In this document: positions 1-4,464 of the stretch, one piece after another
How the letters are laid out: each line of letters opens with the position of its first letter
How positions within the stretch are numbered: the first letter of the stretch is position 1
DNA from: Zhongshania aliphaticivorans
Lineage (GTDB): Bacteria > Pseudomonadota > Gammaproteobacteria > Pseudomonadales > Spongiibacteraceae
DNA length: 64,000 nt
Direction of reading: 5' to 3'
Assembly: GCF_902705855.1 (NCBI RefSeq)
Contig: NZ_CACSIJ010000017.1
Span: 1-64,000, forward strand
Notes under the pieces: generated by a model
Told to the model about the DNA's origin: nothing
What the model saw: only the letters and a program-made list of their open reading frames with translations
Databases searched by the model: none
Translations under genes and position numbers: made by a program

Positions 1-7
1 GTCCCAT
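1..7 (-). CDS. Possible start of a third mobile-trio gene (partial)
   Basis: Only an ATG (minus strand, bases 7-5) and one further codon lie in the window. A GGAG ribosome binding motif sits about 8 bases upstream of the ATG, and the position follows the stop of the 132-residue gene by some 55 bases. The short frame that directly follows that stop closes after five codons, so this ATG is the better candidate for the next gene. If the recombinase module is a Gamma-Mobile-Trio, this would be the start of gmtZ; that is inference from order alone. Confidence 0.3.
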
Positions 8-61
8 GATGACACTCCAATAATTGACGGCTATTGTCTCTTATTAAAGCGTCCGGTTCAT

Positions 62-460
62 TCAACCAGAACACCGATCCCAATACGCGAGAATTGCGTC
101 AGATGAAATTTGATCTCCATTGATGAAAATAATCCCATCTACTTCCATTTTAATAAGTGCGGAAAAAATGTTTTTTTTGTATATGAGAAAGGTTTCAGGC
201 ACTACTTTCATGGCAATTGCAGTCAAAATTGACTTTAGCTTTGATCGCAAATCATGAGAGACGAACGGGATTTCATCGAAGTTGATCTGAAACTCTTCCC
301 ATTGCCTTCTTCTAGAGGTAGGCGCGGATTTAAGTCGGTTAGATTTTTCTCGTTCATACCGAACTACCCAGATATCGGCCCCATTCTGCTCGTCTTTGTA
401 AACTTGTGTCTGATAGTCTGAGTGACCATTAAAAATATGCTTCATACTTGAATCCGTCAT
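62..460 (-). CDS. Small protein coupled to a tyrosine recombinase (possible GmtX)
   Basis: This 132-residue protein is not recognised with certainty. It is rich in charged residues in the first half (a basic KSAPTSRRR patch near residues 44-52), followed by a likely helical, hydrophobic second half. It has no signal peptide and no catalytic motif that I can name. Its ATG overlaps the stop of the upstream tyrosine recombinase by 4 bp (an ATGA overlap), so translation is probably coupled and the two proteins probably act together in element mobility. The order recombinase of about 460 residues, then a protein of about 130 residues, then another gene, agrees with the Gamma-Mobile-Trio layout, in which this would be GmtX. 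An accessory subunit of another multi-gene recombinase module is the alternative. A real gene is likely from the overlap; the family name is tentative. Confidence 0.6.
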   Translation of the reverse strand: MTDSSMKHIFNGHSDYQTQVYKDEQNGADIWVVRYEREKSNRLKSAPTSRRRQWEEFQINFDEIPFVSHDLRSKLKSILTAIAMKVVPETFLIYKKNIFSALIKMEVDGIIFINGDQISSDAILAYWDRCSG

Positions 461-1842
461 GTTAAATCAGGCCTGTGAGCAAAAAAGGCATCAATTTTTT
501 TGGCGAAATTGGCGTTCATTCCATCCTGTCTCCACTCGGTAAAGAGGCTGCCGTAGTGCTCTGGCATATCACTTGTAAGCGACCAGCCACCAAAAGATCG
601 CAAGTTAGAAAGAACCATTTGTAGGTCAAATTTTTCTCCTTTACTTTCAGCGTATTCGAAAGCCTCAAATAGGTATAAAGTTGCTCTCGAGTGGCGGAAC
701 GTATAAGGAATGAAGTCATGTGTTGCCCCAACTGCTGTTAGCTCTGAAGATGACCTGTCAAGTAAGACGAGAAAGTGTTCTTTTATGCTAGAAAACAGTG
801 TTGAGGGGTAATCTCTAGATCCGAGGGGGGCACCGCTTTCTTTTACAAACAGGAATCCTTTTGAGAGATTGCATCCACTCTTTGAAATAGCGGCCGCGAT
901 GGCTATCCGATAGAACCCGTTAAGATACTGCTCTCTCAGGTCGAAAAGTGCTTTTGGAACTGGTACGACTCGATTGTGGCGCCCGACAGATTTGTTTCTG
1001 GCGCGCTTACCTGGAGCTACTTCTTCACGGCTAAATTGCTTGTTATCACGGCTATCTTTGAATTCGACATAATAGTGTTCGCCGTCGCTTCGAAAATCCC
1101 TCAATCTCAAATTCATAACTTCTGATGGCCGACCGCCTGTCATTGCCAAACACAAAAGGTAGAGGCGATCTCTTTGTGCAGATGTTGAAGGTCTATTAGA
1201 TTTTGTTTTGAATAAGTCAGCAGGGTCACGCTGGATCAGTTCTTTGACAACTGCCATAAACTGATCAGGTGGCAATGCTTTGACTTGATACTTCGTTTGT
1301 ATGTTTCTTGCGGGAGGTATTGTGTTGCTTAGGCTTTTTTGGAAGCTAGCAAGCTGGTTATCGTAACTCTGGATCACTTTTAATGGAATTTCACGTCGAA
1401 CTTTGGATGCCAAAAAGTCTAGGTAGCATGAAATCTGTCGCCAGGATGCATATTGTTCAGCCCTGGATCGTTGCATGAGTTGCTCGCTACCTTTTTGCAG
1501 TACTACTTTACTGAATTTCTTGTGCCGCGTAGTGCCTAAAAATAACCTTCCCTGAATGTAAGCCTTTCGAGACTCGGAGCTGAATGATAAGTAATTCTTC
1601 AAGTCGATGAGTTCGCTTGGGTCTAAAGGCGGTAATGCAGCCCTGAGCCTATGAAATACCGAGATTTTTTTGCAGTCCAAAAATCTCTCGAAGGCTAGAA
1701 TTTCCCGCATTGCTTTGAGCTGGGTGTTGTAAGCATGTCTCGTAAGCACCTCCAGCAGATAGAGGTTCGGGTAGGCGTGAGGAAGTCCTGCCACATTAAC
1801 CGCGAAAGGAGCGGAGCTTCTAGTGTTGATTACATAATCCAT
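457..1842 (-). CDS. Tyrosine recombinase / integrase (possible GmtY)
   Basis: A site-specific tyrosine recombinase of 461 residues. The box I arginine lies in TGGRPSEVMNLRLRDF (R238), a basic segment around residues 278-292 could supply the beta-hairpin lysine, box II reads PYTFRHSRAT (R383, H384), and the probable nucleophile is Y430 in PEHYG, with W420 in the place of the usual His/Trp. The first histidine of the HxxRH box is a tyrosine here (Y380), a departure from most integrases. The first 190 residues would form the core-binding region. It is the first gene of a minus-strand unit and overlaps the next gene by 4 bp. The length and the partner gene fit GmtY of Gamma-Mobile-Trio elements, although a Tn554- or RIT-like recombinase is possible. 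An integrase at this spot suggests that the boundary of an island lies between it and the gene at 1971. Confidence 0.85.
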   Translation of the reverse strand: MDYVINTRSSAPFAVNVAGLPHAYPNLYLLEVLTRHAYNTQLKAMREILAFERFLDCKKISVFHRLRAALPPLDPSELIDLKNYLSFSSESRKAYIQGRLFLGTTRHKKFSKVVLQKGSEQLMQRSRAEQYASWRQISCYLDFLASKVRREIPLKVIQSYDNQLASFQKSLSNTIPPARNIQTKYQVKALPPDQFMAVVKELIQRDPADLFKTKSNRPSTSAQRDRLYLLCLAMTGGRPSEVMNLRLRDFRSDGEHYYVEFKDSRDNKQFSREEVAPGKRARNKSVGRHNRVVPVPKALFDLREQYLNGFYRIAIAAAISKSGCNLSKGFLFVKESGAPLGSRDYPSTLFSSIKEHFLVLLDRSSSELTAVGATHDFIPYTFRHSRATLYLFEAFEYAESKGEKFDLQMVLSNLRSFGGWSLTSDMPEHYGSLFTEWRQDGMNANFAKKIDAFFAHRPDLT

Positions 1843-1970: not shown

Positions 1971-2189
1971 GTGGTCTTATCTTTACAGTTAAAGAATGAT
2001 CAGGCAGATAACGTGTTAAATTTCTTCCGGCAGGATCATGGTTACAAAGACGGAAGTTATATAAAAATATGGCAGGGCGAGGAGGATAATGTGCATTTAG
2101 TCGATATTTTGGCTAAAGCAGATGCTCAATCTAGTCAATTTGCCGACGAGGTGTACCAAGGTTTAGCTGCGCGCTATCCCAAGGCTTAG
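1971..2189 (+). CDS. Small hypothetical protein, 72 residues
   Basis: I do not recognise this protein. It begins with GTG, preceded by a strong GGGAGGGG ribosome binding motif about 4 bases upstream, which supports this start. It is acidic, soluble and without cysteines, membrane segments or a signal peptide, and it has a helix-friendly second half (residues 45-68). Its stop is 10 bp before the ATG of the nuclease-like gene at 2200, so the two are probably one transcript and may function together. It lies directly outside the recombinase gene, at what may be the host side of an island boundary. A function cannot be given. Confidence 0.7.
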   Translation: MVLSLQLKNDQADNVLNFFRQDHGYKDGSYIKIWQGEEDNVHLVDILAKADAQSSQFADEVYQGLAARYPKA

Positions 2190-2199
2190 GTGCTAGGGA

Positions 2200-3057
2200 A
2201 TGTCCTCCGACAAAATATCTACGTCTGCGTTAGCTAAACAGGGTGAAATTCCTGTTCAGCAGCTTTTCTCAGTTCTCAAGGATTACGGCTGGATACGCAA
2301 AGTTGATGATGGCTGGGCGCTGACTACCAAGGGGGAGTTTGAGGGGGGCAGCTACCTGAGTAGTAAACGATACGGGCGCTATATTGTCTGGCCGCAGGAC
2401 TTACTTGAGCATCAACTTTTTAAGGCGATGGAAAGCAATAAGCTGCTGTCTGCTACAGCGCTTGGACGCCCTGAAGGTTTTAGTGGTCGTGAATTAAATC
2501 GACTATTTGTCGAGCTGGGCTGGTTAAAGCCCAGTCCTCGAGGTTGGGAGCTGACCGCAACAGGCAGTGCGCTTGGCGGTCAGGTATTTGAAAATCAACA
2601 AAGCAGTTTAAGCTATGTGCTATGGCCTGAGGATATCCGCGAGCGAGAAGCATTTATCCGCCTAATTCAGGAGTGCAAAATTGAGCCACAGGCCACCGGT
2701 GATTTATTTGGGGATAAGTCTTCCTGCTGGACGGCCATAGATGGCGTGGCCTGTAAGTCTCGGGAGCACTGTTGTATCGCGCAGTGGCTCTATTTAGCAG
2801 GGGTCCGTTATAGCATTTATCGACCTTTACCCGTCGACGAATTACAAGTCAGTGACTTTTATTTGCCGGATAGTGCAGTGTGTCTTGAATTTTGGGCTGC
2901 CACTGAGCATTCAGATGCAATATCAGCGCGGATGCGTCGCGCTGAAATCTGTAAGGAATTGAATTTGTCGGTACTGGATATTCATCCGGATGATATGCCG
3001 AGCTTAGATGATTATCTAAGTCGGCATTTACAGCAACTTGGCGTGGTGTTTTATTAA
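2200..3057 (+). CDS. Two KilA-C-like repeats fused to a PD-(D/E)xK nuclease-like domain
   Basis: This 285-residue protein has two similar units: residues 37-66 (DDGWALTTKG...GRYIVWPQDL) and 113-146 (PRGWELTATG...SYVLWPEDI). Both have the winged, tryptophan-rich look of the phage antirepressor C-terminal (KilA-C) family. The last 110 residues look like a PD-(D/E)xK nuclease: E189 in a helix before a YRPLP strand, then D219 in SDFYLP and E230 in CLEFW, the ExW variant, followed by basic residues 244-252. I infer a DNA-binding protein that may cut DNA; neither activity is proven. Four cysteines at 176-192 (C176, C185, C191, C192) might bind metal. It is the second gene of a pair with the 72-residue gene upstream. 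Housekeeping, defence or element-linked roles are all possible. Confidence 0.7.
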   Translation: MSSDKISTSALAKQGEIPVQQLFSVLKDYGWIRKVDDGWALTTKGEFEGGSYLSSKRYGRYIVWPQDLLEHQLFKAMESNKLLSATALGRPEGFSGRELNRLFVELGWLKPSPRGWELTATGSALGGQVFENQQSSLSYVLWPEDIREREAFIRLIQECKIEPQATGDLFGDKSSCWTAIDGVACKSREHCCIAQWLYLAGVRYSIYRPLPVDELQVSDFYLPDSAVCLEFWAATEHSDAISARMRRAEICKELNLSVLDIHPDDMPSLDDYLSRHLQQLGVVFY

Positions 3058-3079: not shown

Positions 3080-3367
3080 TTAACGTCCAAACTCAATTTT
3101 TATTGCCTCGGCTAAGGCGAGGTCTTTTGCAGTGAGGCCACCGGCATCATGAGTGGTTAAGGCAATAGTGACGGTTTTGTATACATTGCTCCACTCGGGG
3201 TGGTGATCAATTTTCTCAGCGCGAATTGCTACTCTCGTCATAAACGCGAAGGCGCTAATAAAATCGTCAAACTCAAATACACGGTATAGTTTGCCGTCTT
3301 TTAATTCCCAGTCTGGTAGATCATTAAGTGCATTGCTAATTTCTAAATCGGTTAGCTTCACTGTCAT
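3080..3367 (-). CDS. phhB: 4a-hydroxytetrahydrobiopterin dehydratase
   Basis: Pterin-4a-carbinolamine dehydratase removes water from 4a-hydroxytetrahydropterin, regenerating the pterin cofactor used by aromatic amino acid hydroxylases. The family signature is clear in the second half: [13 protein letters not shown] followed by [14 protein letters not shown], holding the two active-site histidines and the later THxxGG histidine. I use the ATG at 3367, giving 95 residues: it overlaps the trmA stop as ATGA and has an AAGGGG ribosome binding motif at the right distance, whereas the longer frame to 3400 adds 11 residues unlike the family. No phenylalanine hydroxylase gene is nearby, so the substrate source is unknown; many bacteria carry this gene without phhA, possibly linked to molybdopterin or folate repair. 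Confidence 0.92.
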
Positions 3368-4464
3368 GGCTGGCCCCTTCTTTTTAAAAATACTCCGCAT
3401 TCCATATGGTGAGTGTACGGGAACTGGTCGAACAGGGCGAAGGCATCTGCGGTATGAGTTTTGGTTAATATTTGCAAATCGCGATGTAGCGTTTCTGGGT
3501 TGCAGGATATATAGACAATATGTTCAAACGTTGAGATGAGCTCTCGAGTATTGTTGTCTAGGCCTGCACGCGGTGGATCGACCAGCACAGTATTTATATT
3601 GTAACTGTCTAAATCAATGTGCTCCAAGCGGCGGAAACTACGCTCTTTGTTAAGTGCTGAGGTAAGCTCTTCGCTAGACATGCGCAATACGTCGATATTG
3701 TTTACGTTGTTTAATGCAAAATTTTCGTGCGCGGCTTTAACGGAGGTCTTTGATATTTCTGTTGCGAGCACTTTTCTAAATTGCTTAGACAGCGGGATGG
3801 TAAAATTTCCGTTACCGCAATAAAGCTCTAATAAATCGCTGTTTGGGTTTTCTTTAACTTGGCTTTTAGCCCAGCTAATCATTGTTGCGTTTAGCACTCC
3901 GTTGGGCTGAGTAAAGCCACCTTCATATTGGTTGTAAATATAAAGCTCGCCGTCTACCGGTAATTTTTCGACGACATAATCGCGGTCTAATACTAATTTT
4001 TGCTTTTTGCTGCGACCAATAATTTGAATGTTAAGCTCACTCGCCAAAGTCCTTGCTAAAGCTTCCCACTCTTCATCTAGGCGTCGGTGATAAATCAGGC
4101 TAACCAGCATATCGCCACTTAAGGTGCTGAGGAACTCTACTTGGAATAGGCGTTTGCTCAATATTGTTTGGCAAATAATTTTATTTAATAGTACCGGCAT
4201 CAAGTCATCTATGGATTTCGATGCGGTTGGAAATTTGTCGATCCGGACTGGGGTTTTCGGTTCAGCGGGGTCGAACATTGCGTAGTAGGCGTCGCCATTG
4301 TCATGCCATAAACGAAACTCTGCCCGTAGTCGGTAGTGCGCGGGATGAGATGGAAAAACAGTAGGTGCTGGCAGTGCTAAGTCCGTAAAAATCGACCCGA
4401 CCTTCTGCGCTTTGTCTTGCAAAATCGCGGGGTAATTGTCGATGTCGATAGGGTTAATACTCAT
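3364..4464 (-). CDS. trmA: tRNA (uracil-5-)-methyltransferase
   Basis: TrmA methylates U54 of the T-loop of tRNAs to ribothymidine, using S-adenosylmethionine, in the cytoplasm. At 366 residues it matches the E. coli enzyme. The Rossmann region [15 protein letters not shown] (about residue 210) binds the methyl donor. VDPPRAGLD and [13 protein letters not shown] near the C-terminus carry the catalytic cysteine signature of the RNA m5U methyltransferase family. The short form and its N-terminus separate it from RlmC and RlmD, which have an Fe-S cysteine cluster. Its stop overlaps the phhB start, so the two genes are coupled. The start at 4464 has no equally good alternative. Confidence 0.95.

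Follow-up and report, generated by a model that had tools for sequence, protein, structure and literature searches.

With good confidence, the left end (positions 1-2015) of the 64,000-nucleotide stretch of DNA analysed here (the window; C17:1-64000, with base 1 at the contig end) is one end of a GInt-like genomic island, which has split the chromosomal dUTPase gene and most likely substitutes for it with a dUTPase of its own. GInts (the Tn6571 family; Bardaji et al. 2017, PMC5385486) carry an operon of the order A-B-C-D at one end. They are tripartite, the gin operon being followed by cargo and by a short, AT-rich other end (PMC5385486). Our reading is drawn from one island in one draft assembly and from distant homology. 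The window contains the following features.

1-73, minus strand: IS3-family end, made up of the inverted repeat at its terminus and the beginning of the transposase; the identical 73 bp stand at the end of contig C16, and the inverted repeat matches the end of contig C5.
74-76, minus strand: CGG, the 3-bp target-site duplication of the IS3-family insertion, found also directly after the IS end on C5.
62-460, minus strand: 132-residue reading frame with the N-terminal fragment (129 residues) of gene B, a GinB-like tyrosine recombinase, continuing in frame across the target-site duplication.
457-1842, minus strand: gene A, an intact GinA-like tyrosine recombinase of 461 residues (PHROG integrase, E = 7.5e-11; 100 bits against a profile of the A genes of six other operons).
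1843-2009, no strand: island terminus nearest the recombinases, AT-rich (GC 0.325) and carrying TGTAAA/TTTACA motifs that are clustered at the far terminus too.
2010-2015, no strand: AACGTG, the 6-bp common att core; the same 6 bp stand at the far junction (C1:64103-64108).
2010-2189, plus strand: C-terminal remnant of the host dUTPase, from about residue 140 onward (PF08761; tblastn-type search with the protein of an intact relative).
2200-3057, plus strand: core flanking gene of PADLOC family PDC-S69 (334 bits), present in 18 of 18 genus genomes.
3080-3400, minus strand: core flanking reading frame, which we take from its sequence to be pterin-dehydratase-like.
3364-4464, minus strand: core flanking methyltransferase reading frame of 366 residues, present in 18 of 18 genus genomes and, as we read its sequence, presumably TrmA-like.

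This edge had been described in an earlier note as a unit of three genes. Both reading frames named there are present with their 4-bp overlap, and GGAG does precede an ATG at positions 7 to 5 of the minus strand; the single three-gene unit did not hold up. What was taken for the start of a third gene falls within the IS3-family end at 1-73. The 132-residue frame, read as a complete gene and as GmtX, turned out to be an IS-truncated fragment of a tyrosine recombinase that continues in frame on C5. Its last three residues and stop codon come from the IS, because the IS3-family element inserted in gene B. A GmtZ-like gene had been expected farther to the left, where the operon instead continues as recombinase B, recombinase C and the small coiled-coil protein D. 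The annotation is corrected accordingly: contig-edge "genes" that resemble a known trio belong to a recombinase operon broken by IS elements.

The operon could be followed across two contig breaks. At its start, C5 (4163 bp) encodes the C-terminal part of a transposase of the IS3 family (NF033516, 83 bits). Its other end is of the IS66 type; the IS66 family is our own assignment from reading the sequence of this second element. The IS3 ends on C17 and C5 are inverted repeats with CGG flanking both. Likewise, the IS66-type ends on C5 and C1 form inverted repeats, flanked on both contigs by the target duplication GAAATAAA. The two insertions, each with its own target duplication, thus explain both contig breaks, and the matching ends and duplications give the order rc(C1) - IS66 - C5 - IS3 - C17. 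The full contig path would run rc(C1:64108..1) - IS66 - C5 - IS3 - C17:1-2015, a tight inference from target duplications and from reading frames carried across the unassembled IS interiors. Further IS copies lie on C16 and C18 (C1:1-73 is identical to C18:172-244), in flanks that differ from those on C17, C5 and C1. A direct adjacency of C1 and C17 was considered and discarded: their ends do not overlap, and C5 and two IS copies lie between them. Four contigs, C7-C10 (1085-2313 bp), consist entirely of N, and some of them may represent interiors of IS3 and IS66 copies. The expectation that cargo lies to the left of the window was borne out, as the island continues on C5 and C1 with the following features.

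C5:259-1446: remainder of gene B (395 residues; Phage_integrase, E = 4.9e-8; NF041502, E = 1.4e-20; GinB-type profile, 94 bits).
C5:1439-3784: gene C, a tyrosine recombinase of about 781 residues from its ATG (profile, 123 bits).
C5 and C1: gene D, a small coiled-coil protein of about 148 residues, with 63 residues on C5 and 88 on C1; the two parts share the IS66 target duplication.
C1:443-1075: island dimeric dUTPase of 210 residues, complete and divergent, about 450 bp from the contig end that adjoins gene D.
C1:1382-24013: defence-like cluster that mixes DruE-like, DpdE-like and DrmMI/type IIG-like components with an LmuB-like ATPase, PDC-M65A/B, UvrD-like, HNH and WYL proteins, and is not attributed to a single named system.
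C1:24500-59050: metal-resistance region for copper/silver and other metals, with three CusA/CzcA pumps, a CopA multicopper oxidase and a CopR-type heavy-metal two-component regulator.
C1, after the metal genes: far-end cargo consisting of a KfrA-like reading frame, a second tyrosine recombinase and a helicase.
C1:64103-64561, minus strand: N-terminal part of the host dUTPase, from the same split gene.

From the module end, the cargo on C1 is ordered dUTPase, HNH, UvrD-like, PDC-M65A/B, LmuB-like ATPase, DrmMI/type IIG-like methyltransferase, DpdE-like helicase, DruE-like helicase and WYL protein. Part of the island cargo is therefore defence-like, as the earlier note had predicted. The assembled sequence of the island amounts to at least 70 kb, of which the C1 part is 64 kb. 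The second tyrosine recombinase (C1:60452-61399) stands near the far island end, with the helicase and the reading frame that we presume, from its sequence, to be KfrA-like nearby; it possibly belongs to a nested element. The PDC-S69 gene at 2200-3057 was rejected as island cargo. Its label as a candidate defence gene is itself doubtful here, because the gene is core in all 18 genus genomes.

The interrupted host gene encodes a dimeric dUTPase (PF08761), which in relatives lies just upstream of the gene at 2200. In a tblastn-type search, residues 137-197 of the enzyme, its C-terminal third, were located at window positions 2001-2183 and residues 1-145 at C1:64091-64525. All 17 other genus genomes have an uninterrupted copy of the gene, whereas the copy here is split; this comparison with empty sites supports the view that the window begins with a mobile island at its recombinase end, the island junctions lying at the dUTPase gene. 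On both sides, the flanking DNA runs colinear with the empty site in one relative (G017), with an identity of 82% on C1 beyond the junction. Together, the split halves, the colinear flanks and the AACGTG at both breaks indicate that the element entered the dUTPase gene midway through its coding sequence. The host enzyme was thereby deprived of its C-terminal substrate-binding motif.

The core is perfect at both junctions, and the extended similarity around it is weak. It sits at the break within codons of the YVGKNVLNFFRQ motif, which is conserved in the genus. Since the same 6 bp occur at both junctions, the direction of the footprint cannot be read from them. The far terminus has a GC content of 0.445 versus 0.325 at the near terminus. 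The terminal inverted repeats are weak, with 213 of 5000 shuffled sequences giving repeats as good.

No other intact dUTPase gene besides the island copy was found in this genome by the tblastn-type search and the PF00692 search. The trimeric dUTPase model PF00692 gave one borderline match here; this candidate proved to be a dCTP deaminase (TIGR02274, 162 bits). Among the other genus genomes, 16 of the 17 showed borderline single matches and the last showed none. With no trimeric dUTPase in the genus, the split gene was the one dUTPase recognised there, which leaves the island copy as the sole intact one found at present. Since dUTP is the product of dCTP deaminase, a dUTPase should be needed for dTMP supply.

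The island and host enzymes share about 32% identity. The island enzyme exceeds the PF08761 cut-off clearly (88.7 bits versus 22.9), matches dimeric dUTPases of the PDB with E = 2e-23, and retains the metal-binding ExxE...ExxD and the FRQxxGYKDGxYxKxW motif when aligned with host enzymes. The AACGTG core is absent from its gene. The closest phage match is 38.7% identical, and a phage origin is possible; in the genome-contig collection, the search for close relatives yielded only a 40% partial match. None of the four plasmid dUTPase loci examined (4/4) had a recombinase module nearby. As the only intact dUTPase gene found, the island copy most likely makes up for the lost activity, an effect that would also tie the host to the island.

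The recombinases of the module are diverged. Gene A matches Pfam Phage_integrase with E = 3e-4, below the cut-off. It is absent from all other genus genomes and finds distant matches only elsewhere; the genome-contig and viral-contig collections hold no close relatives of it. The full length of gene B is about 524 residues (129 + 395), of which the 129 residues in the window make up the N-terminal quarter. This fragment has no detectable homologue, and the 132-residue frame has no close relatives among plasmids; the part on C5 is recognised also by the integrase_1 model. For gene C, the viral-contig collection contains no close relatives, and its profile finds one copy in this genome and hits in only three other genomes among 369 of the class. 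Residues R223, K264, H491, R494 and Y527 of gene C are invariant in an alignment of six C proteins, its own included.

Operons of four genes in this order, with comparable sizes, were found on Enterobacter and Salmonella IncHI2A plasmids, in Pseudomonas-like genomes and in another gammaproteobacterium, G307; the Enterobacter plasmid operon encodes proteins of 442, 512, 822 and 139 residues. A profile was built per gene from six other operons, with the proteins of this island left out. Each of the latter was recognised by the right profile: A with 100 bits, the second part of B with 94, C with 123, and the two parts of D with 16 and 5.5 bits. The identity of the module proteins to those of the compared operons is about 20-26%. 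In G307, the operon (L110:3637-9531) lies directly behind an SSB-like gene, and the ssb site is the hallmark GInt location (PMC5385486).

The profiles and the anatomy thus give the GInt arrangement of three tyrosine recombinases and a small gene in the order A-B-C-D, now interrupted by IS3 in B and by IS66 in D. The further likenesses are the position of the operon at one end, site specificity and a large cargo in which copper resistance and restriction-type genes occur; short imperfect repeats with a 6-nt exchange region may be another. Published GInts are flanked by imperfect direct repeats of 10-17 nt with a staggered cut of about 6 nt, and the size of their cargo ranges from 2.5 kb to at least 70 kb (PMC5385486). 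Their published targets are the end of ssb, the start of an ABC transporter gene and the end of a ribonucleotide reductase gene (PMC5385486), whereas the target here is the middle of the dUTPase gene, and the island carries a second version of the gene that it disrupts. The module also departs from the family in its IS-broken genes B and D and in its low sequence identity. In addition, GinC has been described as lacking the first catalytic arginine or the RHRY set of catalytic residues, while gene C and its homologues keep an apparent R-K-H-R-Y set. This retention may mark a sub-clade or may reflect a difference from the published alignment. The loss is a trait described for GinC and no requirement of the family; because gene C differs from this description, we call the element GInt-like.

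The edge of a Gamma-Mobile-Trio island (GmtY-GmtX-GmtZ), as proposed in the earlier note, is hardly credible. A tyrosine recombinase of about GmtY length (the model has 441 positions) does stand at an island edge with defence-like cargo, and weak matches of distant GInt-type A proteins to GmtY (33-36 bits) indicate that the two families are distantly related. According to papers that cite Mahata et al. 2024, the trio islands likewise are recombinase-marked, carry defence cargo and occur in gammaproteobacteria. However, a whole-genome search with the GmtY model NF040693 (cut-off 340 bits) at E ≤ 0.001 came back empty, and genes A-D match no NCBIfam Gmt model at E ≤ 1, GmtY being the only Gmt model confirmed in the library. 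The profile search with the 461-residue protein, which the earlier note had called for, also returned no Gmt model among its matches at E ≤ 1. NF040694, tried as a further Gmt model, is ribK and uninformative. The putative X and Z are here a truncated recombinase and an IS end, in an operon of four genes. An assembly artefact or a chromosomal rearrangement that parted the dUTPase halves is very improbable as well. The two halves do stand on separate contigs, with a break in the assembly at each IS copy; yet the 6-bp core is identical at the two junctions, beyond which lies DNA that relatives lack, with the recombinase module at one junction, while the flanks are colinear with the empty site and target duplications link C17, C5 and C1.

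Strand-biased circularizing integrative elements (SEs) have the gene order recombinase (intA), non-catalytic Tfp (tfp), large recombinase (intB) and Srap (srap) (PMC10214605). They are common in Pseudomonadales and have a four-gene operon and a 6-bp spacer (PMC10214605); the operon lies at one end and includes two or more tyrosine recombinases, terminal repeats are present, and the large gene C keeps R-K-H-R-Y like IntB. We still consider an SE rather than a GInt relative improbable, as Tfp has no catalytic motif, whereas gene B is a recognisable recombinase by its Phage_integrase and integrase_1 matches. Moreover, all four genes match operons of which one lies behind an ssb gene as GInts do, and the island is far larger than the SE median of 15.7 kb. 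Tn554 (tnpA-tnpB-tnpC) combines two tyrosine recombinases with a small TnpC and leaves a 6-bp footprint (PMC10214605); the element described here has three recombinases and different hosts, which by description sets it apart. Finally, the island may be GInt-like and split the dUTPase gene while its own dUTPase is incidental cargo, for example phage-derived or part of the defence-like cluster. In favour of this, phages and plasmids often carry dUTPases, the phage match has the identity given above, and only one example is known. The reading is nevertheless unlikely, since the island gene is the only intact dUTPase gene found, adjoins the recombination module and encodes the same enzyme type as the disrupted gene.

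For the GInt-like island with a substituting dUTPase, we infer the following course. From what is known of the family, tyrosine recombinases would swap strands between the 6-bp core of the island and the AACGTG core of the dUTPase gene, within KNVLNFFRQ. Integration disrupted the dimeric dUTPase gene of the chromosome, as the split halves show, and the dUTPase brought along by the island would keep the cell alive. Later insertions of IS3 and IS66 broke genes B and D, as seen in the sequence. All four gin genes are required for movement and circle excision of GInts (PMC5385486); with B and D broken, the island is predicted to be fixed and circle excision to fail. The element has thus probably lost its capacity for autonomous movement.

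We suggest only tentatively a wider reading, that the island targets a presumably essential gene of nucleotide metabolism in mid-coding sequence, carries a divergent replacement devoid of the att core, and so makes the host dependent on it, a maintenance by gene substitution in a GInt-like sub-clade with three apparently catalytic recombinases. The element family is already known. A dUTPase-targeted GInt and replacement cargo of this kind are absent from the papers searched, a set outside of which many subscription papers lie. Most described GInts sit at gene ends, such as those of ssb and a ribonucleotide reductase gene, where the product is not destroyed. If the wider reading is true, an insertion through what looks like the only dUTPase gene, paired with a divergent intact dUTPase on the island, would offer a clear-cut and testable example of how a mobile element can take over a housekeeping role and in this way ensure that it is maintained.
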